DNA of 64,000 nt, from assembly GCA_017415025.1 (NCBI GenBank), contig JAFQJH010000004.1, forward strand, positions 1 through 64,000, read 5' to 3'. The position numbers were made by a program, and so were the translations under genes. The notes below the pieces were generated by a model. That model was given only the letters and a program-made list of their open reading frames with translations, made no database searches and was not told where the DNA came from. Below, in pieces: positions 40,996 through 62,605 of this stretch. The DNA comes from Clostridia bacterium (GTDB taxonomy: Bacteria; Bacillota; Clostridia; Oscillospirales; Acutalibacteraceae). Positions within the stretch are counted from its first letter, which is position 1. Each line of letters opens with the position of its first letter.

Positions 40996-42471
40996 ATGAA
41001 TTTTAAGGATAGTTTAACAAAGAAATCGGTAAACACGCTGATAAATCTTATCATTTCAACCATGCCGAAAAGGTACTTCACCACACAGGAAAGCTCTGAC
41101 AGATTTATGCTCACGGGCGACAAAAAATTCTGTTCCGATCCCGGTGAAAAATGGACCGTCGGCTTTGGTAAAAAAGCATACACTCCCGAGGATTACAAGG
41201 AAAAAACATATTATATCGCAGGCTATGATTCGAACAACCCCGTAAAAGGAATACTCGATGACCTTTATGCAAGAGCAGTTTATCTTGACGATAACAGAGG
41301 CGACGGAGGTGTAATTTTCTGCGCACTTGACTGTGTAGGTATAAGCAGAAAGGACATAAACGACATCAGAAAGCTTGCTCTCGAGAGCGGCAGACTCGGA
41401 AAGGTCAAGTCAATCAATATTTCTTCAACTCACACGCACGCAGGAATCGACACCCAAGGTCTCTGGGGCGAAAAGATTTATAAATGCGGTAAAGATAAGG
41501 CTTTTATGGAAAATCTTAAAAAATCTGCGGCTCAGGCTGTCATTACTGCCTTTGAGAACAGAAAGGACGGAAAGCTGTTTTGGGGTTATACGCCTGTTGA
41601 AGATATGCAGGCTGATGTCAGAACACCCGTAACCTACGACAAGAACCTGACACGATTCCGCTTTTCTCCCGACGATAAATCAGGCGATATTTACATAGTT
41701 AATTTTGCATCTCACGCAGAGCTGCTCGGAACGACGTCGCTTGTCAGCGCCGACTTCCCCGCATATCTTATCAAGGAAATTGAAGAAAATGAGCCGGGCT
41801 CGGACGCTGTTTTCTTCAACGGTGCCGTAGGCGGTATGATTTCCGCAAAAGAAATAAAGAAGGTTTACAGAGATTCAATTGACTGCGAAGCATATATGAA
41901 GGACTTCGGCAAGCAGTTAGGCAAAATTGCTCTTTCAATCAAAGATGAAGCTGAGCTCAAGCCGATTCTTAACATAAAATCCAAGGGCGTTATAATTCCG
42001 GGCGAAAACACGGTGCTGATTCTTGCAAGATATCTCAAGGTTCTCAACAACGATATCGGACGAACAGAAAAGCGGAACAAGGCGTGCATTTATTCGGAAG
42101 TGGGATATATGGAATTGGGCGATAAGGATGTTGCCGTTTTTCTTATCCCCGGCGAGCTTTTCCCCGAGCTTTATAACGGAGAATTCCTGACGGAAAAGGA
42201 CAGCGCAAATCACACAAGGGCAAGCTACAAAAAGGTTCTTGCCGATATGACAGAATGTAAGCACAAGTTTGTTGTCGGACTTTGCAACGATGAGCTGGGC
42301 TACATTCTTGCGGAAAACGACTTCCTTCTTAACAAAACTCTGCCATATATCAACAAGGCTACCGATGATATGGACAGAGACCACTACGAGGAAACCAACT
42401 CAACAGGACCCGAAACAGGCAAAATTATTCTTGAAGAAACAGAAAAGCTGATTAAATCGGCCTATAATTGA
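40996..42471 (+). CDS. Neutral ceramidase-like metallohydrolase (paralogue 1)
   Basis: 491 residues. All four positions of the neutral ceramidase zinc site can be placed: THTH at 145-148 (in STHTHAGIDTQGLWG), His240 in VNFASHAELLG, Glu387 in IPGELFPE and Tyr436 in NDELGYILAENDF. The ceramidase serine loop (NxGDxSP) is replaced by FFNGAVGGMIS near 273-283. A weak N-terminal hydrophobic stretch may be an export signal. The superfamily cleaves amides such as ceramide; the real substrate here is unknown. Closest to paralogue 4 (55692-57173). Followed 19 bases later by paralogue 2. Confidence 0.85.
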   Translation: MNFKDSLTKKSVNTLINLIISTMPKRYFTTQESSDRFMLTGDKKFCSDPGEKWTVGFGKKAYTPEDYKEKTYYIAGYDSNNPVKGILDDLYARAVYLDDNRGDGGVIFCALDCVGISRKDINDIRKLALESGRLGKVKSINISSTHTHAGIDTQGLWGEKIYKCGKDKAFMENLKKSAAQAVITAFENRKDGKLFWGYTPVEDMQADVRTPVTYDKNLTRFRFSPDDKSGDIYIVNFASHAELLGTTSLVSADFPAYLIKEIEENEPGSDAVFFNGAVGGMISAKEIKKVYRDSIDCEAYMKDFGKQLGKIALSIKDEAELKPILNIKSKGVIIPGENTVLILARYLKVLNNDIGRTEKRNKACIYSEVGYMELGDKDVAVFLIPGELFPELYNGEFLTEKDSANHTRASYKKVLADMTECKHKFVVGLCNDELGYILAENDFLLNKTLPYINKATDDMDRDHYEETNSTGPETGKIILEETEKLIKSAYN

Positions 42472-42490
42472 TAATGAGGAGATGTCAATA

Positions 42491-44233
42491 ATGAAAAAAC
42501 TTTCCCGTTCTTTTATCGCAATTCTTCTTGTATTTACTATGCTTTTTTCTGCAAACTCAACAACATCATTCGCAATCGGCGAACAGGGCAACAACCCTAT
42601 CTACTTTGTCACGAACGTGCTCGGCGGCTTTATTGACGGCTTAATCAAGCTGTTGGGAGTGTTGGCTCCTACACCCGACTACCCAACGGTTGAGGAATAC
42701 TTTGCGGCAGACAGTGAAAATTTCTACGAAGGAACAGAAAGTTTTATCGACGATGCCGCTGACGGAGCAAAATGGTCTCTCGGCTTCGGCAAGGAAAGCG
42801 TCGTCCCCGACAATCTTCGTGACGGAAGTAAGAAATACTATACCGGCGGATACTTTACGCAAAAGGTCAATGGTGTTTTTGACGACCAGAAGGCTGTTGC
42901 GATCGCTCTTAACGATGGCTCGGGCCGCGGAACAACTATCTTCGCTTCAATTGACGGTATCGGCGTTGCAAATGCGGACGTCCGTGCCATAAGAAGTGCA
43001 GTTGAGCAAAAGCTCAGGGAAAAAGGTATTGACAGCGACATCAACGCCATCAATATCAACGCAACGCACTGCCATACTGTTATTGACACCCAGGGTATCG
43101 GACTTGACCTTCTGCCCAAAATTTTATTCAGCTTCTTCGGCGGAGCAAAAAGGTCGGTGAATACCGAGTTTCTTGAAGTTATGATCGACCGCAGTGCCGA
43201 TGCAATCGTTGAGGCATATACAAACACGGAAACGGGCAAGCTCTATTACTTTGAAGCCGCAGATATGGGCAAGGACGAGGAACACGGCTTATACCTCGAA
43301 GACGAATATCCGTATCTTGTAAACAAGAGATACTATAACGAAAACTATCAGAATTTTTTTGCCTGCTTTAAGTTTGTACCCGACAACAAGGCTTCTGCGG
43401 CAACTATCTTTACAAACATAGGTGCTCACCCCACACTTATTGATGAGGATACAAAGCTTCTTTCCGCAGACTTTCCCGCATTTATGGAAAAGAAAATCAA
43501 CGATGCAGGTATGAATTTTATGTTTATTCAGGGTGCACAGGCTCCTGTTTCAGTCAACAAATGGGCTGATTTACCTGAAAACACTATCAATGAGGTTGAT
43601 GCGGAAATCGCAGTAAACCCCACCGCAGAGGATTATAAAACAGCAATACTCTTCGGTTACGAGTTTGCAAAGCTTGTGCTTGAGGCACAGGATAACGTAA
43701 AAGAAATTGAGCCCATACTCAACGTAAGAATGACGGAATATACTGTTCAGCTTGAAACCGGACTTTTCGGTTACGGTGCGACAGAAGGCTTTATCGGCAC
43801 AACAACGGTCGAGGATCCCGAAAGTGAGACAGGCTATTCGATTATTACCGAAGCAGGCTACATAGAAATAGGTAAGGATATCGTCCTGCTGACCGCACCG
43901 GGAGAAATTGTTCCGCAGCTCATTTACGGCAACGTCGTTACGGCAGAAGACTCCTATCGCGGAACCGAATGGACCTATGAAGCAACCGCAGATCTTATCC
44001 CCGAAGGAAAAACCGTTCTTGTTATGGGTCTTTGCAACGATGCCATAGGCTATATTCTTCCCGACAATGACTTTGCACACTTTATTGCGGACCTCATCTG
44101 GGATGCAGACGGTGCAGAAAAGCTTTTCGGACCGTATCACAGACATTATGAGGAAATGCTTTCAGCAGGAAGCTCTGCAGGCTCAACAACCGTTACTGTT
44201 CTGAATGGGCTTGCCAAGAGTATAAACCCGTAA
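42491..44233 (+). CDS. Neutral ceramidase-like metallohydrolase, secreted (paralogue 2)
   Basis: 580 residues from ATG 42491 (GAGGAG 9 bases upstream; ATG 42482 abuts the Shine-Dalgarno). Clear signal peptide (FIAILLVFTMLFSANS core, cleavage near SFA-IG) and then a hydrophobic helix at 43-58. Zinc-site positions: THCH 192-195, His313 in NIGAHPTL, Glu472 in APGEIVPQ and Tyr521 in NDAIGYILPDNDF. The serine-loop position reads FIQGAQAPVS. It is longer than paralogues 1, 3 and 4, with an insert around 205-230 and another around 425-450, and most like paralogue 5 in layout. Ends at a strong terminator. Confidence 0.85.
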   Translation: MKKLSRSFIAILLVFTMLFSANSTTSFAIGEQGNNPIYFVTNVLGGFIDGLIKLLGVLAPTPDYPTVEEYFAADSENFYEGTESFIDDAADGAKWSLGFGKESVVPDNLRDGSKKYYTGGYFTQKVNGVFDDQKAVAIALNDGSGRGTTIFASIDGIGVANADVRAIRSAVEQKLREKGIDSDINAININATHCHTVIDTQGIGLDLLPKILFSFFGGAKRSVNTEFLEVMIDRSADAIVEAYTNTETGKLYYFEAADMGKDEEHGLYLEDEYPYLVNKRYYNENYQNFFACFKFVPDNKASAATIFTNIGAHPTLIDEDTKLLSADFPAFMEKKINDAGMNFMFIQGAQAPVSVNKWADLPENTINEVDAEIAVNPTAEDYKTAILFGYEFAKLVLEAQDNVKEIEPILNVRMTEYTVQLETGLFGYGATEGFIGTTTVEDPESETGYSIITEAGYIEIGKDIVLLTAPGEIVPQLIYGNVVTAEDSYRGTEWTYEATADLIPEGKTVLVMGLCNDAIGYILPDNDFAHFIADLIWDADGAEKLFGPYHRHYEEMLSAGSSAGSTTVTVLNGLAKSINP

Positions 44234-44255
44234 ATACTGTTACTGAATATATCAA

Positions 44256-44301
44256 CGGAGGCAGTACGGATAAGCTCCGTATTGCCTCCGCTTTTCTTTT
44301 T
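44256..44301 (+). terminator. Strong terminator after ceramidase-like pair
   Basis: 15-bp stem CGGAGGCAGTACGGA / TCCGTATTGCCTCCG (one G-T), TAAGC loop, then CTTTTCTTTTT. Confidence 0.92.
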
Positions 44302-44357
44302 ATATACGGCAAAAATACAGGTGTTCTTTTTGACACTCTGCCGAACGGAGGTACTTT

Positions 44358-46469
44358 ATGACAAAGGAAACTGCCAGACAAAAAGCAAGAGAGCTTGTTG
44401 CAAAAATGACAGCCGAAGAAAAGCTTTCACAGCTTTTATACAATGCGCCCGCAATTGAAAGGCTCGGTATAGAAGAATATAATTGGTGGAACGAGAGCTC
44501 TCACGGTATTCACGGCGCAGGTACAGCCACCGTTTTTCCGCACGCTATTGCAATGGCTTCGACCTTTGATGCGGAGCTTGTCGGAACAGTTGCCGATGCA
44601 GTTTCAACGGAAGGCAGAGCAAAGTACAACGAGCATATAAAATACGGCGACCACGATATTTTTAAAGGAATCACCTTCTGGGCACCAAATATCAACATTT
44701 TCAGAGACCCCCGTTGGGGAAGAGGTCAGGAAACCTTCGGAGAAGATCCGTTTCTTACCTCGATGCTTGCCGTTTCTTACATCAACGGAATTCAGGGCAA
44801 CGGAGAATTTCTGAAAGCAACGGCTTGCTCAAAGCATTTCGCCGTCCATTCGGGCCCCGAAAAAACCAGACACGGCTTTAATTCAGTTGTCGATAAGCAC
44901 GACCTTTTCGAAACCTATCTGCCCGCATTTGAGAAAACAGTCAAAGGCGGTGTTTCGGGAGTTATGGGCGCATACAACCGTCTTAACGGCGAGCCCTGCT
45001 GTGCCCATTCATATCTTATCTCACAGATACTCCGTAAGGAATGGAAATTTGACGGCTATGTCGTTTCTGACTGCGGTGCACTCAAGGACATTTATAAATT
45101 TCACAAATTTGTTGAAACAAGGGCAGAAGCCGCAGCTGTTGCTCTCAAGAGCACCTGCGACCTTAACTGCGGGGACACATACGAGGCACTTGTTGACGCA
45201 TACGAGCAGGATTTAATAACCGATGAGGACATCACTGCCGCCGCAGAAAATCTCTTCACCATCCGTTACCGTCTGGGTGAATTTGAAAATCCGAGACCGT
45301 ATTCCGATATCGGATATGATAAGCTTGACTGCGACGAGCATAAGGCACTTAATCTGAAAACAGCAGAGCAGTGTATGGTACTGCTTGAAAATAAAGATAA
45401 TTTCCTTCCTCTTGACAAAAACATAAACAAGAAAATTGCGGTTATCGGTCCCAACTCTCTTTCCGTTACCGCCCTTGAAGGCAATTACAACGGCTATGCA
45501 TCCGAATACGTGACCGTCGCGGACGGTATCAGAAGAGTTTTCAAGGATGCCGAAATCAAGGTTGAAAAGGGCTGTAATTATTGTGACGAGTATCTTAATC
45601 ATTGGAGCGGATTCCGGAATATGATAAGCGACGGCGTTGCAGCAGCCGCCGAATCGAATATCACAATTCTTGCGCTCGGTCTTGACCGAACGGTTGAGGG
45701 CGAGGACACGGGCTTTGACGATGATTACACAGCCAGCGGTGACAAGCGTTCGCTCTTCCTCCCCGCAACTCAGCAAAAGCTTGCAGAGGCAGTCTGTGAC
45801 GTGTGCGATAACGTTATTGTCGTTCTTCTTTGCGGAAGCTCGATTGACATCGGCGAAAAGGTAAGAAGCCACGCAAAGGCTGTTATTCAGGCTTGGTATC
45901 CCGGCTCACTCGGCGGTCTTGCACTTGCAAATATTCTTTCAGGCGAAGTAAATCCCTCGGCAAAGCTTCCCGTTACAATCTATAAGGGCGACCACAATAT
46001 ACCCGATTTTGAGGATTACAATATGAAAGGCAGAACCTACCGATATATTGACGGCGATGCGCTCTACCCCTTCGGCTTCGGTCTTTCATACACAAAATAT
46101 GCTTATAAAAATGCAAAGCTTATTTCCGCGGACAGCGAAAAGATAACTGTCAGCGCAGAGGTCGAAAATATCGGCAGAATTAAGGGTAAGGAAATCATTC
46201 AGGTTTATGCATCTTATACCGACAGCCGTGTTGCCACTCCTCATTGGCAGCTTTGCTCGGTAAAGCCTGTTACCCTTGAAGCAGGTGAAAAAGCAGACGT
46301 AGCTTTCGACATCGACCGCTACTGGATAAAGGCTGTCACCACGGACGGTGAAAGGGTTGACCCGGACGGAAAGATTACTCTTTATATCGGAGGACATCAG
46401 CCCGATAACGTAAGCAACCGTCTGCTCGGGTATCAATGTCTTGAGCTTGGCATTATGAGTAAAATATGA
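44358..46469 (+). CDS. GH3-family beta-glycosidase
   Basis: 703 residues. GH3 N-terminal TIM barrel with the nucleophile Asp238 in VVSDCGAL, RDPRWGRGQETFGEDP near 116-131, and KHFAVHSGPEKTRHG near 159-172; then the alpha/beta sandwich with VIGPNSLSVTALEGNYNGYA near 363, and the C-terminal fibronectin-III-like domain from about residue 590. Family members remove beta-linked glucose or xylose from the non-reducing end. No signal peptide, so cytoplasmic, despite an island rich in secreted proteins. CGGAGG precedes the ATG. Followed 54 bases later by a GH78-like gene. Confidence 0.93.
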   Translation: MTKETARQKARELVAKMTAEEKLSQLLYNAPAIERLGIEEYNWWNESSHGIHGAGTATVFPHAIAMASTFDAELVGTVADAVSTEGRAKYNEHIKYGDHDIFKGITFWAPNINIFRDPRWGRGQETFGEDPFLTSMLAVSYINGIQGNGEFLKATACSKHFAVHSGPEKTRHGFNSVVDKHDLFETYLPAFEKTVKGGVSGVMGAYNRLNGEPCCAHSYLISQILRKEWKFDGYVVSDCGALKDIYKFHKFVETRAEAAAVALKSTCDLNCGDTYEALVDAYEQDLITDEDITAAAENLFTIRYRLGEFENPRPYSDIGYDKLDCDEHKALNLKTAEQCMVLLENKDNFLPLDKNINKKIAVIGPNSLSVTALEGNYNGYASEYVTVADGIRRVFKDAEIKVEKGCNYCDEYLNHWSGFRNMISDGVAAAAESNITILALGLDRTVEGEDTGFDDDYTASGDKRSLFLPATQQKLAEAVCDVCDNVIVVLLCGSSIDIGEKVRSHAKAVIQAWYPGSLGGLALANILSGEVNPSAKLPVTIYKGDHNIPDFEDYNMKGRTYRYIDGDALYPFGFGLSYTKYAYKNAKLISADSEKITVSAEVENIGRIKGKEIIQVYASYTDSRVATPHWQLCSVKPVTLEAGEKADVAFDIDRYWIKAVTTDGERVDPDGKITLYIGGHQPDNVSNRLLGYQCLELGIMSKI

Positions 46470-46523: not shown

Positions 46524-48851
46524 ATGAGAGCTATACAGACAATTATTTCTTATCTTGCAATAGCGGCGGCTTTTCTTTCTTCAATCTTTTCGTTCGGTGA
46601 TTCCGAAATGATACCCTATACAAATAATTACGAGATTCCCGACAGTATTCCCGGCTATCAGGTGATTTCTGACGAAGAGAAAACCGATTGGACCGCAAAA
46701 TGGATCTGGGACAAGGAAAATCTGACGGAAGAAAACGTATGGATGTGCTTCAGCAAGAAGATAAGCCTTGATACAATTCCCGACGAGCTTATTGCCGACA
46801 TCTCTGCCGACTCGAAATATTGGCTTTACATAAACGGAAAAACCGTTGTTTTTGAGGGTAGCGTAAAACGCGGCCCCGATAAAAACAGCGGCTATTACGA
46901 CAGTATTGATATTGCGCCTTACCTCAAAGAGGGCGAAAACTCAATTTGTGCTTTGGTGTGGTTCTGGGATAACGAAACAAGCTATTCTTACAGCGGCAGC
47001 GGTCAGGGAGGTTTTATTTTCGAAGCTAAAAATTCGGATATCAGCATAATTTCCGACAAAAGCTGGAAGGTAAAAAGAAACAGTGCCTACATTGACAGCC
47101 CGTTTTATCCGCCTAATTATAGGTTGCCTGAATACAGCATCTACTTTGATGCAAGAAAAGATAACGATTGGTTAAACGGAGCTTATGATTTTTCATCCTG
47201 GGAAAACGCAACCGAATATGCCGTCGGCGGTGAGGGTGCTTACGGCAAGCTTTACCCGAGAGGAATTCCGTTTTTAAAGGATTACGGTCTTAAAGACTAT
47301 GAAAATTCAGAAAGCTATGAAAACTATACCGTAAAAAAGCTTTTCGGTGAAAAAATCACCGTGGATATCCCCTACAATGCACAGGTTACTCCCTATCTTA
47401 AAATCATAGCACCTGCAGGCAAAAAGATTCGCATAACAACGGAAAACACTTTAATCGGTGCAGTTTCAACCACCTATAAGACCAAAGAGGGAGAGCAGGA
47501 ATTTGAGGCATTGGGCTGGGTAAACGGAGAGCATATCACTTATAAAATACCGAAGGGCGTCACCGTCGTTGCCCTCAAGTACCGTGAAACGGGATATGAC
47601 AGCTCATTCTGCGGTGACTTCAAGTGCGACGATGAATTCCTTAATTCTCTGTGGCAGAAATCTCTGCGCACGCTCTACGTTACTATGCGCGACAGCTTTA
47701 TGGATTGTCCCGACAGAGAACGGGCACAGTGGTGGGGCGACGTTACAAGTGAAATGATAATGACAATGTACTCTATGGACAGCAATTCCTACCTGCTGTA
47801 TCAGAAGGGTGTTGAAGCAATGCTTTCCCACGTTGATGATACAAAGGTACTCCAGACCGTTGTTCCCATAAGCGGAGACTATTTTGAGCTTCCCGTTCAG
47901 CAGCTTGCAGGAATCGTCGGCTTTCTCACTTACTATGAATATACCGGCGACAAAGCTTTTATAGAAAAGGTTTATGATGCATCTCTTGACTACCTGAAGC
48001 TTTGGGAAATCGGAGAAAACAATCTTGTTGTTCACCGCGAGGGCTCGTGGGATTGGCCCGATTGGGGCAAAAAGGCAGATATGACAGCTATCGAAAATGC
48101 CTGGGTTTACTACGCTCTTTCTGCCACAGAGGAAATGGCGAAAATTTTAGACAAAAACGAAGATATCTCATTTATTACCGAAAGAAAGGACACTATCGCC
48201 AAGGGATATAAAGCTCTTTGGACAGAAAACGGCTTTAAAAGCAAGGACGTCCGAAAACCCGATGACAGAGCAAATGCCCTTGCAGTTTTGTCGGGACTTG
48301 CAGAAAAAGAGCAGTATGACACTGTTGCAAATGTGCTCACAACCACTCAGAATTCCAGCCCCTATATGGAATACTACGTGCTTGAAGCTCTTTGCAAAAT
48401 GGGAGAATATGAAGCCGCAAGAGACAGAATCAAGATAAGATACGAGGATATGATGAGCGAGGATTACTCCACACTTTGGGAATTCTGGGACTCGTGGCGA
48501 GGCACTAAAAATCACGCGTGGAGCGGCGGTCCTCTCGTTATAATGAGCAAGCATTTTGCGGGAATCACTCCCCTCGATGCAGGCTATGAAAAGGTTAAAA
48601 TCGAGCCTCAATACACTCTGTCCGACAGCCTGAGCTGTACCGTTCCGAGCGTTAAAGGATTAATCACTCTTGATTACAAAAAAATTGACGGGAACTGTAC
48701 TGTCAACCTCACTCTTCCCGAGGGAACGGAGACCGTTTTGTACGTACCCGCCAATGCAGTTGTGAATATCAATTCCGAGACCTTTTACCGAAACGGTGAA
48801 TACGTAAACGATAAAATCGGTGAAATTGAAATTATAGAATGTGCAGTATGA
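46524..48851 (+). CDS. GH78-like alpha-L-rhamnosidase, secreted
   Basis: 775 residues. N-terminal hydrophobic segment (IISYLAIAAAFLSSIFSFG) is a signal peptide or anchor. Then a beta-sandwich sugar-binding region (WTAKWIWDKENLTEENVWM, typical of rhamnosidase N domains), and from about residue 370 the (alpha/alpha)6 catalytic barrel with FMDCPDRERAQWWGDV (general acid Glu in DRER region), WDWPDWGKK near 510 and TLWEFWDSWRGTKNHAWSGG near 650. The motif set fits GH78 and related families that release alpha-L-rhamnose. Acts outside the cell. GGGAGG precedes the ATG; downstream it converges with a radical SAM gene. Confidence 0.85.
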   Translation: MRAIQTIISYLAIAAAFLSSIFSFGDSEMIPYTNNYEIPDSIPGYQVISDEEKTDWTAKWIWDKENLTEENVWMCFSKKISLDTIPDELIADISADSKYWLYINGKTVVFEGSVKRGPDKNSGYYDSIDIAPYLKEGENSICALVWFWDNETSYSYSGSGQGGFIFEAKNSDISIISDKSWKVKRNSAYIDSPFYPPNYRLPEYSIYFDARKDNDWLNGAYDFSSWENATEYAVGGEGAYGKLYPRGIPFLKDYGLKDYENSESYENYTVKKLFGEKITVDIPYNAQVTPYLKIIAPAGKKIRITTENTLIGAVSTTYKTKEGEQEFEALGWVNGEHITYKIPKGVTVVALKYRETGYDSSFCGDFKCDDEFLNSLWQKSLRTLYVTMRDSFMDCPDRERAQWWGDVTSEMIMTMYSMDSNSYLLYQKGVEAMLSHVDDTKVLQTVVPISGDYFELPVQQLAGIVGFLTYYEYTGDKAFIEKVYDASLDYLKLWEIGENNLVVHREGSWDWPDWGKKADMTAIENAWVYYALSATEEMAKILDKNEDISFITERKDTIAKGYKALWTENGFKSKDVRKPDDRANALAVLSGLAEKEQYDTVANVLTTTQNSSPYMEYYVLEALCKMGEYEAARDRIKIRYEDMMSEDYSTLWEFWDSWRGTKNHAWSGGPLVIMSKHFAGITPLDAGYEKVKIEPQYTLSDSLSCTVPSVKGLITLDYKKIDGNCTVNLTLPEGTETVLYVPANAVVNINSETFYRNGEYVNDKIGEIEIIECAV

Positions 48852-50630: not shown

Positions 50631-50649
50631 ACAAAGTGAGGTGAATCTG

Positions 50650-51531
50650 ATGTCAATAAAATATCTCCTCGGAATTGACGGCGGAGGAACGAAAACGGAG
50701 TTTCTTCTGACCGACATTGATAAAAATGAAATAAGACGGGCAATTCTCGGCACGTCGAATCCCGTTAATATAGGAATTAAAAACGCTAAAAACATTCTCC
50801 GTCAGGGCATTTCGGAAATATGTGAGGGCTTTGATTGTGCCGAAATCTCCGTTTTCGCAGGACTTGCGGGCGGCGGTGCAGATGATATAAAAGCAGAAAT
50901 CAGCCGTTTTCTCGGCGAACTCGGCTTCGGCGCACATTCAAACGGAACGGATGCCGACAGCGCGATTGCGGTTGCGCTGAAAGATGAAAACGGAACGGCC
51001 GTGATTATGGGTACGGGCATCATCGCCTTCAGCCGTTCGGACGGCGGGCTTCTCAGAGTCGGCGGTCGGGGCTATATGATTGATAAGGGCGGCAGCGGAT
51101 TCTGCCTCGGCTCGGATGCACTCAATTCAGCTTTCGAATTTCTTGACGGCAGAGGAGGAAGCAAGCTGATACTGGGTCTTATTGAAAAAAAGCTCGGCAA
51201 AAGTCTTGAATCTTCGGTCGCGGAAATCTATGCAGGCGGAGCTATGTACGTTGCCTCTTTTGCGCCCGTGATTTTCGAGGCATACACGCAAGGTGATGCA
51301 GAGGCGGAAAGAATTATAGACCGCAACGCACGTGAAGCGGCAAAGCTGATTGCCGCCGCCGATAAGCTTCTGAAAAACGGTGAAAAAACCGTTATCTGTG
51401 GCGGTCTCTGCAAGCAGAAGGATATATTAAAGCCGTTTCTGCTCAAATATCTTAAAAAAGATTTTCCTCTAGAATTCTCTGATGAGCCGATAATTAACGG
51501 AGCGGTACTCCTTGCAAAATCAAACATATAG
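50650..51531 (+). CDS. N-acetylglucosamine/N-acetylmuramic acid kinase-like (BadF/BadG ASKHA family)
   Basis: 293 residues from ATG 50650 (GAGGTGA upstream). ASKHA kinase fold with phosphate-1 motif LLGIDGGGTKTEFLL at the start, the ADSAIAVALKDENGTAVIMGTGIIA phosphate-2 region near 100-125, GGRGYMIDKGGSGFCLG, and adenosine motif VICGGLCKQKDIL near 258. This is the BadF/BadG/BcrA family of GlcNAc kinases. Next to murQ (12 bases), it probably phosphorylates GlcNAc and MurNAc released from peptidoglycan. Cytoplasmic. Confidence 0.88.
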   Translation: MSIKYLLGIDGGGTKTEFLLTDIDKNEIRRAILGTSNPVNIGIKNAKNILRQGISEICEGFDCAEISVFAGLAGGGADDIKAEISRFLGELGFGAHSNGTDADSAIAVALKDENGTAVIMGTGIIAFSRSDGGLLRVGGRGYMIDKGGSGFCLGSDALNSAFEFLDGRGGSKLILGLIEKKLGKSLESSVAEIYAGGAMYVASFAPVIFEAYTQGDAEAERIIDRNAREAAKLIAAADKLLKNGEKTVICGGLCKQKDILKPFLLKYLKKDFPLEFSDEPIINGAVLLAKSNI

Positions 51532-52383: not shown

Positions 52384-52384
52384 A

Positions 52385-53506
52385 TCAATATAAGTACCAC
52401 TTCTTTGAAAGCTCCTGCCAATCGGCAACTCTTTGCTTTTCTCTGACGATAAAGACTTCAGGCTCAAAGTCATCTTTTAAAACATCATCCGTACCGATAA
52501 GCTTTACAATATCAGGATTGATTTCAAGCTCCTTATGAGTTTTTCTGATTGCATCAAGAAGTCTTATCCCAACGACAAAGGGAGAAAAGGCATCCCTGTC
52601 GGTGATGTGGAGCTGAATACCGTGACAGAATATACCTTCATAATCCGAAAATGTCGGAGTGAATGAGCATTCGCGCAGGATAACGCCGTCCTGATAGCCC
52701 ACCTTTTTTATAACGGCTTCGCTGTCGAGCCACGGAGCACCTATCATTTCAAAGGGCTTGGTCGTGCCTCTGCCTTCGGAAAGGTTTGTGTCCTCAAAAA
52801 TACAGGTGCCGATATAAGCAAAAGCAGTATCAACCGTAGGAATATTTGGTGACGGCTGAACGAAAACAAGGTCTGTATCGTCAAAATACATCTCCCTTTT
52901 CCAGCCCTCAAGAGGTACTACGGTAATGTCACAGCCGATACCCTGCGTTTCATTCATCATAAGGGCAAATTCGCCGATAGTAAGTGCACAGCGTGTAGGG
53001 GTCGGAAATCTGCCGACGAAGGAAGAAAAACGGCTGTCGAGCACCGTTCCCTCTGCTTTGATTCCGCCGAGAGGGTTCGGTCGGTCGAGGACAACAAATT
53101 TCACTCCGTTTTCGGCGCAAAGCTTCATCGCATCCGTCATTGTGTAAGCGTAGGTGTAAAACCTTGCACCGACATCCTGAATATCAAAAATCACGGCATC
53201 AAGTGAGGCAAGCATTTTTTCACTTTCCGACGTATCGTCACCGAACAGACTGTATACGGGAAGGCCCGTTTTTTTGTCAGTGTAGGAGGTTATGCTCTCA
53301 TTCGCCTGCACGTCTCCCCTCACCCCGTGCTCGGGTGCAAAAAGTGCCGTCAGGTTGCATTTTTCTTTGAGCATATCCGCAGTTGAAGAAAGGTCGCGCA
53401 GAACGCCCGTGTGGTTAGTGATAAGTCCGCATCTGCCGTGCAAATCAAGTCCGTCACGTTCCGCAACGTCAGCACCGCACAGAACCTTTTGTTTTGCCTT
53501 TTGCAT
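52385..53506 (-). CDS. namZ: NamZ-like exo-beta-N-acetylmuramidase (DUF1343)
   Basis: 373 residues, usual for the DUF1343/NamZ family (GH171), which releases terminal MurNAc from peptidoglycan fragments. Markers: LITNHTGVLRD near residue 33, ALFAPEHGVRGDVQANE near 55-71, VYSLFG, DIQDVGARFYTYAYTM near 108, and VVLDRPNPLGG near 140. GGGAGGG precedes the ATG. Characterised NamZ is secreted, but no signal peptide is visible here, so this copy may act on imported disaccharides. It follows a GNAT gene by 22 bases and faces murQ, so the three form a MurNAc salvage set. Confidence 0.9.
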   Translation of the reverse strand: MQKAKQKVLCGADVAERDGLDLHGRCGLITNHTGVLRDLSSTADMLKEKCNLTALFAPEHGVRGDVQANESITSYTDKKTGLPVYSLFGDDTSESEKMLASLDAVIFDIQDVGARFYTYAYTMTDAMKLCAENGVKFVVLDRPNPLGGIKAEGTVLDSRFSSFVGRFPTPTRCALTIGEFALMMNETQGIGCDITVVPLEGWKREMYFDDTDLVFVQPSPNIPTVDTAFAYIGTCIFEDTNLSEGRGTTKPFEMIGAPWLDSEAVIKKVGYQDGVILRECSFTPTFSDYEGIFCHGIQLHITDRDAFSPFVVGIRLLDAIRKTHKELEINPDIVKLIGTDDVLKDDFEPEVFIVREKQRVADWQELSKKWYLY

Positions 53507-53528
53507 ACTTACCCTCCCTGTGCGAAAT

Positions 53529-54187: not shown

Positions 54188-54218
54188 TGTTTTATACAAT
54201 CATAAAGGAGATGTTACA

Positions 54219-55685
54219 ATGGCAGTAGTTATCAGATGGCTTTCAGCGATTATGGCAGTTCTTTTAGGCTTACCCACACTTATCGGTGCGGTTTTTCAGA
54301 GTCTTACCAAAATAGGCTTTGACGAAAGACCGACCACGGCGATTGCAGAAAATTTTCTTGAGGGCAACGCAACTTTTATCGACGAAGCCGAGTCAGATTA
54401 CTGGTCAGCAGGCTATGCCCGAAGAGTTCTTACTCCCGAGGATATTGAAGACACGCGTTATTTCCTCGGCGGCTTCCTTAAATTCCCTGCACAGGAGGCA
54501 ACGGGTGTTGTTGACGATTTGTGCGTAAGAGCAGTTGTGCTTGACGATAACTCAGGCAGAGGCGCGGCGGCTTTTGCCTGGATTGATGCTGTCGGCTTTA
54601 TGAATGCCGATATTAAGGAAATCCGCGAAAAGCTCAGTGACATCACGGGCGAAGGCAAGCTTATAAGCATCGACGTCGGCTCAACCCACAACCACAGCGC
54701 GGTTGACACACAGGGCTTGTGGGGTAATATCCCCAAGAGCGGCAGAAACCCCGACTACATCAATGCAGTAATCGAAAAGACAGCCGATGCAATCAGAGAG
54801 GCTTACGAAAACCGCACACAGGGTAATCTTTATTATTCGTCAAAATCCTGCCCCGAATTGTTCCACGACGGCAGAGCCCCGTATTCGATTGACGAAAGCA
54901 TCCACCTTTTCCGTTTTGTTCCCAATGATAAGAGCAAAAAAGAGATTTACATAACCAACTTTGGCGGACATCCGATTAATCTTGCTTGGGAAAACTCCGA
55001 GCTTTCGGGCGACTACCCGTATTATATCGAACAGGCTGTAACCGCGGCAAAGAACGTTGATTTCATCTTTATTCAGGGTGCAATCGGCGGTGCTGTCCAC
55101 TGCAATATGGGCACTCATAACGGCATCCCCGAGGAGCTTTCCTCCTTTGAAAAAATGAAAGAATACAGCCTTATTGTGGCCGACATTCTTTATGAGCTTG
55201 CGGCAAAGGGCGAGGCTGTTGAGCCTATCCTCAACGTAAGACACGCACAGCTTGATTTCGAGGTCAATAATTTTGTTTTCCTTCTGGCGGCTAGTGCTGA
55301 CCTTTGCAACGTAAAGGCATTCAAGGAAAACGGAAAAATATACCTTACAAGTGAAATCGGCTACGTTGAAATCGGCAAAGACATAAAAATCCTTGAGACT
55401 CCCGGTGAGGCTCTTCCCGAGCTTATTTACGGCGGCTTCTATTCCGCAGAGGAAGCCTTCAACGGTACCGAATATCCGTACGAAGGCATAGCAACGCGCT
55501 TTGACGAGGATGACGAGGTGCTCGTTTTCGGTCTTTGTAACGATGCTGTCGGCTACATTGTTCCTGATAACGATTACAGCTCATCAGGCAAGGAAGGTCA
55601 CTACGAAGAAACTGTTTCAACAGGCTCAAAAAGCGGAACAGCATTCTCCGAGGCATTCTTCAAGCTTCTTGACGTGTGGGGGTAA
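54219..55685 (+). CDS. Neutral ceramidase-like metallohydrolase (paralogue 3)
   Basis: 488 residues. An N-terminal hydrophobic segment (residues 4-26) looks like a signal anchor. Zinc-site positions: THNH 156-159 (in STHNHSAVDTQGLWG), His251 in NFGGHPINLAW, Glu397 in TPGEALPE, Tyr446 in NDAVGYIVPDND. The serine-loop segment is FIQGAIGGAVH. Superfamily members hydrolyse the amide of ceramide or other N-acyl compounds; here the substrate is unknown. Starts after AAAGGAGATG; 6 bases before paralogue 4, with which it is certainly co-transcribed. Confidence 0.85.
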   Translation: MAVVIRWLSAIMAVLLGLPTLIGAVFQSLTKIGFDERPTTAIAENFLEGNATFIDEAESDYWSAGYARRVLTPEDIEDTRYFLGGFLKFPAQEATGVVDDLCVRAVVLDDNSGRGAAAFAWIDAVGFMNADIKEIREKLSDITGEGKLISIDVGSTHNHSAVDTQGLWGNIPKSGRNPDYINAVIEKTADAIREAYENRTQGNLYYSSKSCPELFHDGRAPYSIDESIHLFRFVPNDKSKKEIYITNFGGHPINLAWENSELSGDYPYYIEQAVTAAKNVDFIFIQGAIGGAVHCNMGTHNGIPEELSSFEKMKEYSLIVADILYELAAKGEAVEPILNVRHAQLDFEVNNFVFLLAASADLCNVKAFKENGKIYLTSEIGYVEIGKDIKILETPGEALPELIYGGFYSAEEAFNGTEYPYEGIATRFDEDDEVLVFGLCNDAVGYIVPDNDYSSSGKEGHYEETVSTGSKSGTAFSEAFFKLLDVWG

Positions 55686-55691
55686 TACAAA

Positions 55692-57173
55692 ATGGAATTT
55701 CTGCGTTTTATCCGCCTTCCCAATCTTGTCAGAGGAATAATATCAGCCTTGCTTTCGCTGATACTTTTCTTTGTTCCGAAATCGACGTACACAACCGTAG
55801 AAAAAGCTTCGGAATATATGCTCAAGGGTGACGAGACCTTTTCTTACAGCGGTGAAAAATGGACTGTCGGCTTTTCAAAGGCTGTGCTCACACCCGACGA
55901 CATCACGGAAGAAAAATATTATATAGCAGGCTACAACACTAATAATCCCGCAAAATCCGTTCTTGACGATATGCACGCCAAGGCAGTTTATCTTGATGAT
56001 AATTCGGGCAGAGGCGGTGTTGTTATCTGTGCAATCGACTGTGTCGGAATCAGCCGTGCCGATATCAACGATATCCGCAAAATCGTTATTGAAAGCGGAA
56101 AAATCCCGAATCTCAAGTCAATCAACATCTGTGCAACCCATACCCACTCCGCTATTGACACTCAGGGTCTTTGGGGCAAGAACTTCCTTTCGGACGGCAA
56201 AAACGAGGGCTTTATGAATGAGCTCAAGCGCCGCACGGCAGATGCGATTATCGCGGCTTACGAAGCACGTGAGGACGGCAAGCTCTACCTCGGCACAGCA
56301 GAATCGGAGGGACTTCTTTACGACACAAGAACACCCGTTGACTATGACGCAACAATAAGCAGAATCCGATTTGAGCCGGCGGACGGCAGCGAAGATACTT
56401 ACATCGTAAATTTCGCCTGCCACGCCGAATGTCTCGGTGCAAGAACAACCGTTGTCAGTGCGGATTTCCCCGCATATATGGAAAAGGAAATAGTTGAACA
56501 GACGGGCGGCGCAAACGTTGTTTTCATCAACGGTGCAATCGGAGGACTTATCACCTGCGAAAAGCTTGATGACATTCTGCGCAACTTCGAGCTTGGTCTT
56601 GAATATGTCAAGGAGTTCGGCAAGGATGTGGGTGAAGCTGTTATGAGCATAAGCAACGAAGAGCCTATCTCCCCTGCCGTCAACGTTAAGACCGAGGCAA
56701 TAGAAATCAAGTGCGATAACACGGCATTGCTGCTCGTTCGCATCCTCGGTGTTCTCAATAACGACATTTCAAGGGATGAGGACAAAAACATTTCGATTAT
56801 TTCAGAGGTTTCGTATATGGAGCTCGGCGATAAGCAGGTCGGTGTCTATATGATTCCGGGCGAGCTTTCTCCCGAGCTTGAAAGCGGAAACTTTCTTTCT
56901 GCAGAGGAGGCGGCAAACTCAACTGAGGCTGATTACAAATCACTTTCCGAAATGGCTCGTTGTAAGCACAATTTTGTTCTCGGACTCTGCAACGATGAAA
57001 TCGGCTACATCATTCCCGAAAATGATTTTCTTCTTCACGAATGGCTGCCTTACTTTAACAATACCGATGACGAAAACGGCAGAAGGCACTATGAAGAAAC
57101 CAACTCCCTCGGCCCTCAGACAGCAGGCGCAATCCTTGAGGCTATGGACAGGGTTATTTCATCGGTAAATTAA
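55692..57173 (+). CDS. Neutral ceramidase-like metallohydrolase (paralogue 4)
   Basis: 493 residues. N-terminal hydrophobic anchor at about 12-28. Zinc-site positions: THTH 149-152, His244 in VNFACHAECLG, Glu391 in IPGELSPE and Tyr439 in NDEIGYIIPENDF. The serine-loop segment reads FINGAIGGLIT. It is by far most similar to paralogue 1 (GEKWTVGF, YYIAGY, THTHxxIDTQGLWG, HYEETNS are shared), so the two are duplicates that took part in the module duplication. Second gene after paralogue 3. Ends at a terminator at 57190. Confidence 0.87.
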   Translation: MEFLRFIRLPNLVRGIISALLSLILFFVPKSTYTTVEKASEYMLKGDETFSYSGEKWTVGFSKAVLTPDDITEEKYYIAGYNTNNPAKSVLDDMHAKAVYLDDNSGRGGVVICAIDCVGISRADINDIRKIVIESGKIPNLKSINICATHTHSAIDTQGLWGKNFLSDGKNEGFMNELKRRTADAIIAAYEAREDGKLYLGTAESEGLLYDTRTPVDYDATISRIRFEPADGSEDTYIVNFACHAECLGARTTVVSADFPAYMEKEIVEQTGGANVVFINGAIGGLITCEKLDDILRNFELGLEYVKEFGKDVGEAVMSISNEEPISPAVNVKTEAIEIKCDNTALLLVRILGVLNNDISRDEDKNISIISEVSYMELGDKQVGVYMIPGELSPELESGNFLSAEEAANSTEADYKSLSEMARCKHNFVLGLCNDEIGYIIPENDFLLHEWLPYFNNTDDENGRRHYEETNSLGPQTAGAILEAMDRVISSVN

Positions 57174-58307: not shown

Positions 58308-60719
58308 TCACACCAACAGCTCATAAAGCTCTGTAAGTTTTCCGTCTTCATATTCAACCGTTTTGGCTTCGTATTTGCAGAAATTGAGAGTAAGCTCTGC
58401 ACCGTTAAGTGTAAGGGCTGTCGCTTTATTTTCGGGTGAATTGTTGAGAAGTCGGAGAATGAAGCTGTCCTTACCGTAACGCTTTTTCATTGTGATAAGG
58501 ACAATGTTTTTATCTTCTATGTAAAGCTCGAAGCCGGACATCTTTTCATCCCTTTCAATCGGGAAAACGTTGCAGGCATAAGGCTTCTGGCAGAATTCCG
58601 TTGCAAGGCGTTCGAGCTCATCCTCATTTGCCACCGTGAGGCGGAATCGGAAATTACTCTCACCCATATCAATTTTTTTAACAAAGCGGTCGGTCGGGAT
58701 AAGCTGTCTGTCCTCAATCGGGTGAGCGCAGTAGGATGCCGTTCGGATGAGTGAAACAGAAATTTCGTTATTCTTAAATGACGAGCCGTAGGCGGTGTCG
58801 TTTATGAGCGCGAGGCATTTTTTGCCGTTATTAACCGCCACAAAACGCTGTGAAACACATTCTCTGCCATCCATATAAAGCGGCTCTGTGCCGAAGCACG
58901 TCTGACCGATATACTGACCGTCGATATTGACGGGGAGCGAAAGCTTGATAAGCTTATTAACATCACCCGCAAAAACGTCAACCTTAACGTCAACATACGG
59001 ATTTGTTTTATAAATATCGTACTCTACGCGGATGCGTGTATTATCCTTTCTGAAGAAGCACTCAACACCGAGGTAGATGTCGCCGTCCTCGATAACCTGA
59101 ATCGGCTTCATCCCCTCAAACACACCGTCGGGATTTTCCGCAAGGGTAAACGGTTCGGGATTTCTGCCCATTGCCTCAAGCTGGAAGTCACCCATTCCCC
59201 ACGGGTCGGCATTATCCTCATACATAAACAGACAGAACGCACCGCCCCTGATGTATTCGGTGTTATTGATTTTATAGGAACGAAGCAAGCCTGTTTTGCC
59301 GTCAATTTCGACGTGCTTGCCGTTGATATCAAAGATAATATCGCTGTTTGCAGGAAGCTCGGGCTTTGGTGTGACGGGTTTGAAATCAGCATAAAGTGAA
59401 AATCTTGAAACCGCAAGCGGCTTTAATTTACTTCTTATTACAAAACGCTTGCGCCAATCGAGATTGAGGTTGCTTTCTTCCTTGATAAACTGCACGGGCA
59501 CAGCGTTGCCGTCCTCGTCATAAACCCTGAACGAGGATTCGATTTCTCTCGACCAGTTCTGGTCGGCAAGTGTCAGCTCACATTCAAATTCCGTTTCCCA
59601 TTCGTAGGGATGCGGATTGAAAACAAGTATCGGATATTCACCCTCTGCCGCCTTTTTCTGTGCGGAGGTAAGCGCAAAATATGCCCTCGCGCGGAGTCGG
59701 TTGAGTGTAAGCATTCCGTGCTCGAGAAGGCGCACTCCGTTTTCCTCACCTGCCTTGATTGATGAGCCCGGAAGAACGTCGTGGAACTGGCTGTTGAGCA
59801 AGTCCTCAACAGCATCGTCAAGCTCCTTTTCGGGGTAAGCGATAAGTCCCCTCGCCGCCGCAACGGAACACATTTTTTCCGTAATTGCAAGCATCGACTC
59901 AAAAAGTGCGTGTCTTGACTTAACGCTTGACATTGTTGTATAACAGCCGGGCATACTGATACGAAGTGATTTATCGTGGCGGTCTGTCGGATTTATTTTT
60001 GCAAAGAAATCATCGGGAGTTGAATGCATAACAGGTACATCGGATTTTTCAATCAAATCCTTGATATCTCTCAAATCTTTTCTTGAAGGGCCGCCTCCGT
60101 GATTGCCGACACCCCAGAGTATCATCACGACGTCGTCCTCGGCATTATCCATTTGACGGTTGATTTTCTCCACCGCCTTGCCGAGTGCCGAGTTATAGCC
60201 CGCCGCGTGTGCCGTTTTTATCTCACTACCGTCAAGACCGACCCACATAAACTGACCGAAGGGTAATTTGTCACTGCCCTCGCGGCAGTAGATATAGTTT
60301 TCCTGTCCGCATTTTTTGATAATCTGCACAAGACCGACAGAATGGCCGAAGGCATCAAGTCCGATTGCGGTTTTCGGGAAAACTCCGAACTTTTCTTCAA
60401 AATATCTTTTGCCGTGCTGAATCTGACGGACAATGCTCTCGCCGCTCGGCATATTGACATCGGGCTGAAGATACCATCCGCCCATAATGTGCCACTTGCC
60501 CTGTCTGATAAGCTCTTTGATTCGTTCAAAAAGAGTGGGCGCGTATTCTTCGATATATTTATACAACGTTACCTCATTATGGCAGAATATATAGTCAAAC
60601 TCGTCGGCAAGGTCTGCCGCCGCTCTGAAGGTAGAAAGTGCGGATGCCGCACCCTCCTCCCATTCCCATTGCCAGATAGGGTCAAGGTGTGCGTTACAGA
60701 TAAGATGTACTTCTTTCAT
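58308..60719 (-). CDS. GH38-family alpha-mannosidase
   Basis: 803 residues from ATG 60719 (AAAGGA upstream). GH38 zinc enzyme: HLDPIWQWEWEE at residues 11-22 (metal ligands His11, Asp13), the nucleophile/metal Asp122 in GLDAFGHS, WGVGNHGGGPS near 211, and the FHDVLPGSSI block near 345, followed by the middle and C-terminal beta domains. It removes alpha-linked mannose, as in N-glycans. No signal peptide. It is divergent from paralogue 5 across 140 bases and may belong to its regulon. Confidence 0.92.
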   Translation of the reverse strand: MKEVHLICNAHLDPIWQWEWEEGAASALSTFRAAADLADEFDYIFCHNEVTLYKYIEEYAPTLFERIKELIRQGKWHIMGGWYLQPDVNMPSGESIVRQIQHGKRYFEEKFGVFPKTAIGLDAFGHSVGLVQIIKKCGQENYIYCREGSDKLPFGQFMWVGLDGSEIKTAHAAGYNSALGKAVEKINRQMDNAEDDVVMILWGVGNHGGGPSRKDLRDIKDLIEKSDVPVMHSTPDDFFAKINPTDRHDKSLRISMPGCYTTMSSVKSRHALFESMLAITEKMCSVAAARGLIAYPEKELDDAVEDLLNSQFHDVLPGSSIKAGEENGVRLLEHGMLTLNRLRARAYFALTSAQKKAAEGEYPILVFNPHPYEWETEFECELTLADQNWSREIESSFRVYDEDGNAVPVQFIKEESNLNLDWRKRFVIRSKLKPLAVSRFSLYADFKPVTPKPELPANSDIIFDINGKHVEIDGKTGLLRSYKINNTEYIRGGAFCLFMYEDNADPWGMGDFQLEAMGRNPEPFTLAENPDGVFEGMKPIQVIEDGDIYLGVECFFRKDNTRIRVEYDIYKTNPYVDVKVDVFAGDVNKLIKLSLPVNIDGQYIGQTCFGTEPLYMDGRECVSQRFVAVNNGKKCLALINDTAYGSSFKNNEISVSLIRTASYCAHPIEDRQLIPTDRFVKKIDMGESNFRFRLTVANEDELERLATEFCQKPYACNVFPIERDEKMSGFELYIEDKNIVLITMKKRYGKDSFILRLLNNSPENKATALTLNGAELTLNFCKYEAKTVEYEDGKLTELYELLV

Positions 60720-60798
60720 AATCAATTTCCTTTCGGGTTTTGCTTTTAACAATAGTAACACAAAACTTATTTTATTTCATCAGTTTTTAAAATAAATA

Positions 60799-60827: not shown

Positions 60828-60859
60828 CAAACCGTAAAACTTACATAGGAGGTTTTGAT

Positions 60860-62605
60860 ATGAAAAAGAAATTGATGAAAATTATTTCCGTAATTCTCAG
60901 CCTTACGCTTGTTTTCTCCGTTGCGGGTACGAGCGCTTATGCAGGCGTTGAGGATTATCTTCCCGAAAAGGAGGCTGTCGGCGAGCAGATTACCGATACG
61001 GCAATCGGTGCAGTGCAGACTGTCGGCGGACTTTTTGCGGGTATGGAAGAGCTTACTTCCTTTGACGCTTTCCTCAACAACCTTTTAAAGGTGCTTTACA
61101 ATCTTCTTAACGTTGTTGTCGAGGTTCTTGTTAAAGCAATCTGCTTTATTTATCCCGACCCTGCAACCTGGCTCGACCTTGAAGAGCACACAACGGAAAC
61201 CTTCCTTGAGGGTCGTGAGGAATACAAGACAGGCGCAGATGCAGGCAACTGCTGGTCACTCGGTTATGCAAGCAGAAGCCTTATCCCCGACGATTTTGAA
61301 GCTGATAAATACTACCTCGGCAGAGACCTTATGAACAAGAAGGCTGAAGGTGTTTATGACGATATGCGCATCCGCGTTGCAGTCCTTGATGACAACAGCG
61401 GTGAAGGTGCGGTTGTTATCGGCGCAATTGATGCTCTCGGCGTTACGTCAACAGACGTCCGTGCAATCCGTGCAGGTGTTCTTGAATACTGCAAGGAAAA
61501 GGGCATCAAGGTTTCAAGTATCAACATAACGTCAACTCACGCTCACTCTGCACTCGATACACAGGGTGTAAGCACAGAGTTTTTCTACAAGCTTTTTGTA
61601 AGCTCCTTTAAAAACCTTCTCGGCTTCAAGGGTGAATTGCCCTTTATGGAGGCTCCGACATATTTCAAGCAGTATTTCATCGAGCAGTCAATCATCGCAG
61701 TCACTGCGGCTTTTGAGGATATGGAAAAGGGCTCACTTTACTACGACAGCATTGACGCGAGCGAATACATAAAGGACAAGAGAGAGCTTGTTTCAAAGGA
61801 AGACATCCCCGAAATCGCAAGCCTTTACTTTGTTCCCGACAGCGGCAGTGAGGACACCTATATTGCAGACATCACCTGCCACCCGACCTCCTTCAGCGCA
61901 AGCAACGGTCTTGTCGGTTCTGACTATATTTACTATATCGACCAATACATCCGTCAGCAGGAAGGCGCAAACTTTGTTATGATTCAGGGTGCCGTCGGTC
62001 AGCTTACACGTGACAACGTTGACGTTGATACAACGGGTATGGACGAATGGACCGAAAAGGGCGCAGAGACAAAGCTCCTCGGTGAGACCTTCGGCGAATG
62101 CATCATCTCCGCTGAATATGAAACAGAGCTTGAGCCTGTTATCAACGCTCATCACACAGAGCTTGTTATCACACCCGAAAACAGTATTCTTGCCCTTGCC
62201 TGTGAGGTAAACCTCGTCAACAATCAGGTTTATTACACAGAGGACGGTGTCGGCATTATCTCTGAAATCGGCTACATTGAATTCGGCAACAAGGTCGGCT
62301 TTGCACTCTTCCCGGGCGAGCTTTATCCCGAGGTTTTCTGGGGTCACGAGATTATCGGCGACACAACGTGGGACGGCACCGAATGGGCATATCCCGCACT
62401 TAACAATTCGGTTGACGGCGTTGACGTTTTCGCAGTAAGCCTTGCAAACGATGCACTCGGCTACGTGCTCACTGATGACAACTTCGCATTTATGGGTCAC
62501 ATCATCGGAGACGGAATTGCAGACGAGGTTCTTTCCGTCGGCAAGCACACCGGCTCATATTTCGTAGGCACATACCTTGATTTGATTGAAGGCTATGTGA
62601 AATAA
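60860..62605 (+). CDS. Neutral ceramidase-like metallohydrolase, secreted (paralogue 5)
   Basis: 581 residues. Signal peptide (IISVILSLTLVFSVAG core, cleavage near AYA-GV) followed by an extra hydrophobic helix at about 70-98. Zinc-site positions: THAH 226-229 (in STHAHSALDTQG), His341 in ITCHPTSF, Glu487 in FPGELYPE, Tyr535 in NDALGYVLTDDNF. The serine-loop segment reads MIQGAVGQLTR. Longer than paralogues 1, 3 and 4 and closest in layout to paralogue 2. It stands alone, with AGGAGG before the ATG and its own terminator, beside a sialate O-acetylesterase-like gene. Confidence 0.87.
   Translation: MKKKLMKIISVILSLTLVFSVAGTSAYAGVEDYLPEKEAVGEQITDTAIGAVQTVGGLFAGMEELTSFDAFLNNLLKVLYNLLNVVVEVLVKAICFIYPDPATWLDLEEHTTETFLEGREEYKTGADAGNCWSLGYASRSLIPDDFEADKYYLGRDLMNKKAEGVYDDMRIRVAVLDDNSGEGAVVIGAIDALGVTSTDVRAIRAGVLEYCKEKGIKVSSINITSTHAHSALDTQGVSTEFFYKLFVSSFKNLLGFKGELPFMEAPTYFKQYFIEQSIIAVTAAFEDMEKGSLYYDSIDASEYIKDKRELVSKEDIPEIASLYFVPDSGSEDTYIADITCHPTSFSASNGLVGSDYIYYIDQYIRQQEGANFVMIQGAVGQLTRDNVDVDTTGMDEWTEKGAETKLLGETFGECIISAEYETELEPVINAHHTELVITPENSILALACEVNLVNNQVYYTEDGVGIISEIGYIEFGNKVGFALFPGELYPEVFWGHEIIGDTTWDGTEWAYPALNNSVDGVDVFAVSLANDALGYVLTDDNFAFMGHIIGDGIADEVLSVGKHTGSYFVGTYLDLIEGYVK

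Follow-up and report, generated by a model that had tools for sequence, protein, structure and literature searches.

The question raised by this locus is what five relatives of neutral ceramidases do in a bacterial genome among genes for the breakdown and salvage of sugars. The locus lies on contig JAFQJH010000004.1 of a Clostridia bacterium (GenBank assembly GCA_017415025.1), the stretch analysed (referred to here as the window) being the first 64,000 nucleotides of that contig. A preliminary description of this DNA had suggested that the five genes could form one system in a glycoconjugate-degradation island. The explanation that best fits the evidence as a whole, which we put forward tentatively and at somewhat short of an even chance, is that they belong to a family of ceramidase-fold paralogues of gut Clostridia that was drawn into several modules for the salvage of amino sugars and glycans, with one of the two pairs in the window (that of module M1) acting as a muropeptide amidase. 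The fold family is a known one, the gene setting is unexpected, and all substrates named below are those that we infer from sequence.

All five genes were found to be genuine open frames with full-length homology among the encoded proteins, arranged as two tightly spaced pairs and a solitary gene:

40996..42471, + strand: ceramidase-fold protein A, type I, first gene of the M2 pair; PF04734 at 35.6 bits, over the cut-off
42482..44233, + strand: ceramidase-fold protein B, second gene of the M2 pair, signal-like N-terminus; PF04734 at 17.1 bits, below the cut-off, zinc ligands present
54219..55685, + strand: ceramidase-fold protein C, first gene of the M1 pair, hydrophobic N-terminal segment; PF04734 at 35.9 bits, orthologues in M1
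55692..57173, + strand: ceramidase-fold protein D, type I, second gene of the M1 pair, hydrophobic N-terminal helix
60860..62605, + strand: ceramidase-fold protein E, solitary, signal-like N-terminus

The gap is 10 bp between A and B and 6 bp between C and D, and a GNAT acetyltransferase gene lies on the opposite strand, divergent from the start of each pair. The source genome (2.09 Mb in 28 contigs, 83.6% complete) carries ten paralogous frames of this kind, namely the five of the window, two on contig C4, two on C10 and one on C25. The earlier identification of five neutral ceramidase-like paralogues is confirmed and strengthened.

The neutral-ceramidase fold (PF04734) was recognised in the catalytic domain of two proteins by structure models, as the preliminary description had anticipated, and of the other three by alignment. 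The closest solved relatives of the family in a structure search were ceramidases and none other, the neutral ceramidases PaCD (2zws/2zxc) and human nCDase (4wgk) having 14-16% identity to the window family. The Pfam profile gave a divided answer, with two of the five proteins exceeding the gathering score of 32.1 bits, two falling below it and one unmatched. The claim that all five hold a full set of zinc ligands was borne out at the level of sequence: the four ligands (His, His, Glu and Tyr), corresponding to the residues that we take to bind zinc in PaCD, were invariant in 83 of 83 aligned family sequences. For this alignment a set of 152 frames, each 430-700 aa long, was thinned to 78 (less than 75% identity, the window five always being kept), and five further paralogues of the source genome were added. 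Such an invariant ligand set suggests that the proteins are zinc amidohydrolases of a single domain, with metal and hydrolase activity predicted accordingly. None of the five matched a known amidase family (Amidase_2 or Amidase_3), their matches in Pfam at 0.01 being PF04734 or nothing.

Signal-like or strongly hydrophobic N-termini, judged by hydropathy rather than by a signal-peptide predictor, were seen in four of the five proteins (that of A being weak only), in agreement with the signal peptides or anchors mentioned earlier. The model of protein D has a confident helix at residues 9-26, outside the ceramidase-matching part. Judging by these N-termini, the probable site of action of the four proteins is the outer side of the membrane.

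Bacterial members of PF04734 are often annotated as ceramidases. The window family differs from the solved neutral ceramidases in its N-terminal hydrophobic helix and its amino-sugar gene setting. Both models end at positions that correspond to residues 487 and 488 of 2zws, a chain of 630, so that the C-terminal part of the ceramidase is absent. Elsewhere in the phylum, another genome encodes a longer relative that matches the entire PF04734 model, and this protein aligns with PaCD and the human enzyme through the segment G-[ND]-x-S-P, the Ser of which we take to be the catalytic or headgroup residue of ceramidase. This Ser falls on family column 287 in two alignments, and it is not a conserved feature of the family, the column holding Ser in 10 of 83 sequences and Ser or Thr in 24 (a shift of the alignment by one residue would raise the Ser count to 34). 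In the window the column is Ile in proteins A and D, Val in C, Thr in E and Ser in B. Since this branch keeps the fold and the zinc ligands but, in its conserved modules, adjoins genes for N-acetylmuramic acid (MurNAc), N-acetylglucosamine (GlcNAc) and other sugars, the ceramidase label probably misleads.

Such a variable serine column could also be read as a sign of degraded, non-catalytic paralogues in which the fold is retained for binding or structure, as could the Tyr that protein B has in the Arg column (which depends on the alignment, an Arg lying one residue away in another). We consider this very improbable in view of the ligands kept in every aligned sequence and of a ratio of non-synonymous to synonymous substitution (dN/dS) of 0.06-0.10 in four compared pairs.

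A scan of named genomes for ceramidase-fold genes gave at least 78 loci (loci in general are numbered with L below). Among the matches listed, a ruminant source was named for 50 of the 78 relatives' loci, and the closest homologues of the window proteins in named genomes came from metagenome-assembled genomes of Clostridia/Oscillospiraceae type. Gene maps and a quickly built tree with 127 proteins (support below 80 on 41 of its 124 inner branches and long branches flagged, close clades alone being used) showed that orthologues of four window genes, the two pairs, keep fixed partners. Counts were made over 77 loci, with L078 left out and L069 counted in two groups. Orthologues of C and D (M1, 20 loci) were accompanied by a GNAT in 19 loci, an amino-sugar kinase in 17, MurQ in 17, GH84 in 16 and NamZ, at varying positions, in 11. 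Orthologues of A and B (M2, 8 loci) were each time accompanied by a GNAT, a KdsB-like protein, a BNR protein, a 403-aa protein and a membrane protein, with GH3 in 5 loci and a second BNR protein in 4. A third clade of type I, with no member in the window (M3, 12 loci), had GNAT in 11, kinase in 8, an SIS protein in 8 and GH84 in 7. Among the 38 loci that belong to other clades, GNAT was present in 2, kinase in 3, SIS in 3, GH84 in 1, and MurQ and NamZ in none; 3 of these 38 kept no ceramidase frame, an overlapping antisense frame apparently having been chosen. These adjacency counts are biased, as the loci were fetched for their ceramidase-like gene and are of unequal length, some of those in other clades being short contigs.

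The reading of the island as one system of five enzymes found no support, as the orthologues of the two pairs sit in two distinct modules elsewhere and gene E is part of neither. Ceramidase-fold pairs do recur in other genomes with fixed partner genes, as had been suggested for survey, but as separate modules, M1 with MurNAc catabolism and M2 with KdsB-like and sialidase-like genes. Protein A is 88% identical to its orthologue in L085, itself in an M2 module. With four of the five proteins in conserved clusters that include cell-wall or sugar-recycling genes, they probably cut an amide bond other than that of ceramide.

In the window M2 (34696-46469) is followed by M1 (50641-57173, without GH84) and then by gene E beside a GH38 gene, and profile searches upheld a glycoconjugate setting, with GH3, GH78, GH38, MurNAc salvage and sialidase-like neighbours:

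34696..36138, - strand: probable multi-pass membrane protein conserved in M2 (8 of 8 loci); no Pfam match, 8 hydrophobic 19-residue windows
36154..37191, - strand: BNR_2 sialidase-like protein; PF13088 at 214 bits, no match in a PDB search at 0.001
37170..38222, - strand: second BNR_2 sialidase-like protein; PF13088 at 38 bits
38298..39047, - strand: KdsB-like CMP-sugar synthetase; NF003952 at 304 bits, cut-off 193
39066..40277, - strand: 403-aa protein conserved in M2 (8 of 8 loci); no Pfam match at 0.01 and no PDB match, weak NCBIfam matches of ornithine-cyclodeaminase type below cut-off
40308..40865, - strand: GNAT acetyltransferase (Pfam), divergent from gene A; best PDB matches 4bmh and 3zj0, a relative of the O-GlcNAcase C-terminal domain
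44358..46469, + strand: GH3 glycosidase of xylosidase/glucosidase type, M2 (5 of 8 loci); NCBIfam matches below cut-offs
46524..48851, + strand: GH78-type alpha-rhamnosidase-like protein (profile search)
50641..51531, + strand: BadF/NagK-type amino-sugar kinase, MurK-like (Pfam); best PDB match the MurNAc/GlcNAc kinase 8zo3 (E 1.1e-24), NagK equivalog model matched below its cut-off
51544..52344, + strand: MurQ, N-acetylmuramic acid 6-phosphate etherase; TIGR00274 at 333.6 bits, cut-off 302
52385..53506, - strand: NamZ exo-beta-N-acetylmuramidase without a hydrophobic N-terminus; NamZ_N at 276 bits, NamZ_C at 133 bits
53529..54134, - strand: GNAT acetyltransferase (Pfam), divergent from gene C; 46% identical to the GNAT at 40308
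58308..60761, - strand: GH38 alpha-mannosidase beside gene E (profile search)

A gene for a B12-binding radical SAM protein with DUF4080 (48857-50512) separates M2 from M1. The M2 core (34696-40277) combines two sialidase-like proteins without signal-like N-termini with the KdsB-like, 403-aa and membrane proteins, and no KdsA was found above cut-off in the genome. In M3 an SIS-domain sugar isomerase of PRK02947 type takes the place of MurQ beside the kinase (L113:12382-13119, L146:5668-6405), which hints at a different amino-sugar substrate for that module.

The gene setting also bears on whether the proteins could be true ceramidases or N-acyl-lipid amidases, cleaving sphingolipids from the host, the diet or Bacteroides, or other N-acyl lipids, while neighbouring glycosidases remove the sugar heads. 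Their exclusive resemblance to ceramidases among solved structures fits such a role, a lipid substrate would suit the hydrophobic N-terminal segments, and GH42, GH3 and sialidase-like genes also lie near M2 relatives. Alpha/beta-hydrolase-like proteins with signal-like N-termini share loci with some relatives (L063, L093, L105, L108, L113, L118, L121 and, in the source genome, L020/L022), an S-x-G-G motif being common to three that were aligned. The role is nevertheless unlikely, given the non-conserved serine column and the missing C-terminal part, given that the M1 neighbours are amino-sugar catabolism genes and that the M2 GH3 and two BNR proteins have no hydrophobic N-termini, and given that the scan of neighbours turned up no recognisable sphingolipid gene. 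The glycolipid reading of the preliminary description is not directly supported for the genes of the window, and the amino-sugar or cell-wall reading has better support, for the M1 pair. The sequences point to no specific substrate for the M2 pair and gene E.

The neighbours of the paralogues on contigs C4, C10 and C25 include GH78, GH95, an MFS protein of sugar-transporter type and alpha/beta-hydrolase-like genes. In all, alpha/beta-hydrolase-like genes near paralogues outside the window were located at L105:3029-4948, L113:14839-16677, L020:12491-14446 and L022:14561-16060, and in L108 and L118.

MurQ, the amino-sugar kinase and NamZ occur together at 50641-53506, a MurNAc salvage set that is kept in relatives, and these M1 neighbours would make up a MurNAc/GlcNAc salvage route, going by the likeness of the kinase to 8zo3, the equivalog match of MurQ and the Pfam match of NamZ. 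From their N-termini all three look cytosolic. The Bacillus subtilis gene ybbC is presumably namZ. MurNAc recycling genes of that species form one cluster, murQ-murR-murP-amiE-nagZ-ybbC (PMC5061867). M1 resembles this cluster in MurQ and NamZ, and the amidase step would be expected at a like place; as the Bacillus cluster holds an amidase with the MurQ and NamZ functions, an amidase would be the missing part of M1, and a zinc amidohydrolase beside MurNAc salvage functions would most simply perform this step. In contrast to Bacillus, the amidase of M1 would have another fold, a kinase stands where Bacillus has the MurP phosphotransferase system, GH84 (in M1 relatives, not the window) stands where it has NagZ, a GNAT is added, and the NamZ of M1 lacks a hydrophobic N-terminus. 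Muropeptide salvage in Clostridium acetobutylicum, which uses MurK and a glucosaminide N-acetyltransferase (Reith and co-workers 2011, as cited in PMC5790795, PMC4680927 and PMC4974736), is alike in its BadF-type MurNAc/GlcNAc kinase and a GNAT, the GNATs being likened by description; it differs in that the excerpts seen mention no ceramidase-fold protein.

The ceramidase-fold proteins could thus act like AmiE despite lacking a known amidase family. Proteins C and D would most likely hydrolyse an amide of muropeptides, the first choice being the bond between the MurNAc lactyl group and L-alanine (the job of AmiE in Bacillus subtilis) and the second an N-acyl group on an amino sugar. The saccharides released would be imported and trimmed by NamZ and, where present, GH84, with the GNAT N-acetylating imported saccharides if free glucosamine is present, after which the kinase would phosphorylate the sugar and MurQ open it. 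The M2 pair may carry out a like step on another glycoconjugate, and protein E on a third.

Co-occurrence was examined in 150 genomes of the same taxonomic family (the source genome included), in which loci were not chosen by their ceramidase-like gene and at most nine candidates per genome were scored, copy numbers being lower bounds. Ceramidase-like relatives were found at E <= 1e-20 in 27 genomes, MurQ in 8, GNAT in 27 and GH84 in 18. The relatives overlapped with GNAT in 20 genomes (Fisher 1.5e-13), with GH84 in 13 (5.7e-8) and with MurQ in 4 (p 0.035), and GH84 overlapped with GNAT in 12 (p 9.8e-7). All four MurQ genes in genomes with a relative lay within 4 kb of a ceramidase-like pair. 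Ten of the 43 GNATs were within 6 kb of a listed ceramidase-like gene, versus about 1.4 pairs expected under uniform placement, the remaining 33 not being beside one, and six were within 6 kb of GH84, versus 0.2 expected. Across the phylum PF04734 was found at 1e-5 in 29 of 398 genomes, and none of the 14 controls had it (no more than three candidates were scored in each genome, so that copy numbers are again lower bounds); of loci read by eye, L135 and L136 had sugar-type neighbours and L134 none that was obvious. L135:2284-5017 (G473, from another family of the phylum) encodes two tandem single-domain PF04734 proteins, with a solute-binding-protein-like gene and a DegT-like aminotransferase, named by reading of their sequences, as neighbours.

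The GNAT partner raises the further idea that the ceramidase-fold proteins are amino-sugar N-deacylases, removing a non-acetyl N-acyl group (such as N-glycolyl or fatty acyl) that the GNAT replaces with acetyl, so that N-acetyl-dependent enzymes can act. In the loci fetched for it, a ceramidase-like gene lay within three genes on the 5' side of the GNAT in 42 of 42 cases, which is consistent with this coupling, as is the genome-wide co-occurrence. In a Rhizomucor glucosaminidase fused to a GNAT, the latter acetylates glucosamine ahead of cleavage, and the same is described of a Clostridium enzyme for peptidoglycan sugars (PMC4680927), so a GNAT can restore glucosamine for a glucosaminidase to act on. 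However, the minority of GNATs near a ceramidase-like gene argues against the coupling, outside deacylation with inside acetylation would be wasteful were the acyl group acetyl, and L146 and L149 hold GNAT, kinase and GH84 with no ceramidase-like gene nearby. We regard it as quite unlikely; with a true lipid amidase, it is the closest rival to the amidase reading.

Several points weigh against a muropeptide amidase in M1 and the recruitment of the family into these modules. The Fisher tests ignore shared ancestry, and MurQ is present in just 4 of the 27 genomes carrying the family, so that MurNAc salvage accounts for no more than the M1 pair. The stretches read in L146 and L149 carry kinase, SIS, GNAT and GH84, and that in L148 carries M2, without a ceramidase-like gene, making the ceramidase-fold protein an added part, neither core nor indispensable. 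A cytosolic NamZ next to membrane-anchored C and D would, from their N-termini, call for an importer. Amidase_2 was not detected in the source genome or in any of the four genomes with MurQ and a relative, but the source genome has one Amidase_3, the depletion of Amidase_2, which 6 of the 27 genomes carrying the family have versus 53 of 123 without it, is weak and not significant (p 0.052), and at the completeness given above absences from the genome are soft.

The GH84 gene of M1 and M3 relatives matches O-GlcNAcases, and the one GH84 found in the source genome is on contig C17. A GNAT of O-GlcNAcase C-terminal type adjoins GH84 in salvage modules of relatives (L061:6238-8505, L146:7323-9541) and on C17, outside the window. 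O-GlcNAcase PDB entries match the GNAT at 40308 at 4.3e-5 or less well, many other GNATs ranking above them. Among eight GH84 frames shown, that of L056 alone begins with a hydrophobic stretch, perhaps owing to an over-long start. A similar GNAT beside GH84 is the OgOGA-OgpAT pair of Oceanicola granulosus (PMC3814719), although in M1 and M3 the two are accompanied by an amino-sugar kinase, MurQ or an SIS protein, NamZ and ceramidase-fold genes. According to PMC3814719 and PMC3919268, what the Oceanicola pair does is presently unknown and the substrate of a Streptomyces GNAT is open. The module setting seen here suggests glucosamine acetylation before cleavage as the role of the GNAT, and its adjacency to GH84, mirroring the domain fusion of animal O-GlcNAcase, suggests an ancestral glucosamine N-acetyltransferase role.

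Put at its broadest, gut Clostridia may have turned the neutral-ceramidase fold into a novel kind of cell-wall (MurNAc-peptide) or amino-sugar amidase, with a radiation into ten paralogues in the source genome, several of them tied to salvage modules of their own, and with a partner GNAT that is the free-standing ancestor type of the animal O-GlcNAcase C-terminal domain and acts as a glucosaminide N-acetyltransferase preparing the substrate of GH84; this possibility is a doubtful one. No bacterial non-ceramidase member of the PF04734 family was evident among the titles and abstract openings listed in literature searches on ceramidases. If the proteins are cell-wall amidases, they would add a structurally new class to the peptidoglycan enzymes of animal-gut bacteria and may influence the set of muropeptides that the host encounters. 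The linked GNAT-GH84 pair offers a definite role, open to testing, for the domain of animal O-GlcNAcase that resembles an acetyltransferase.

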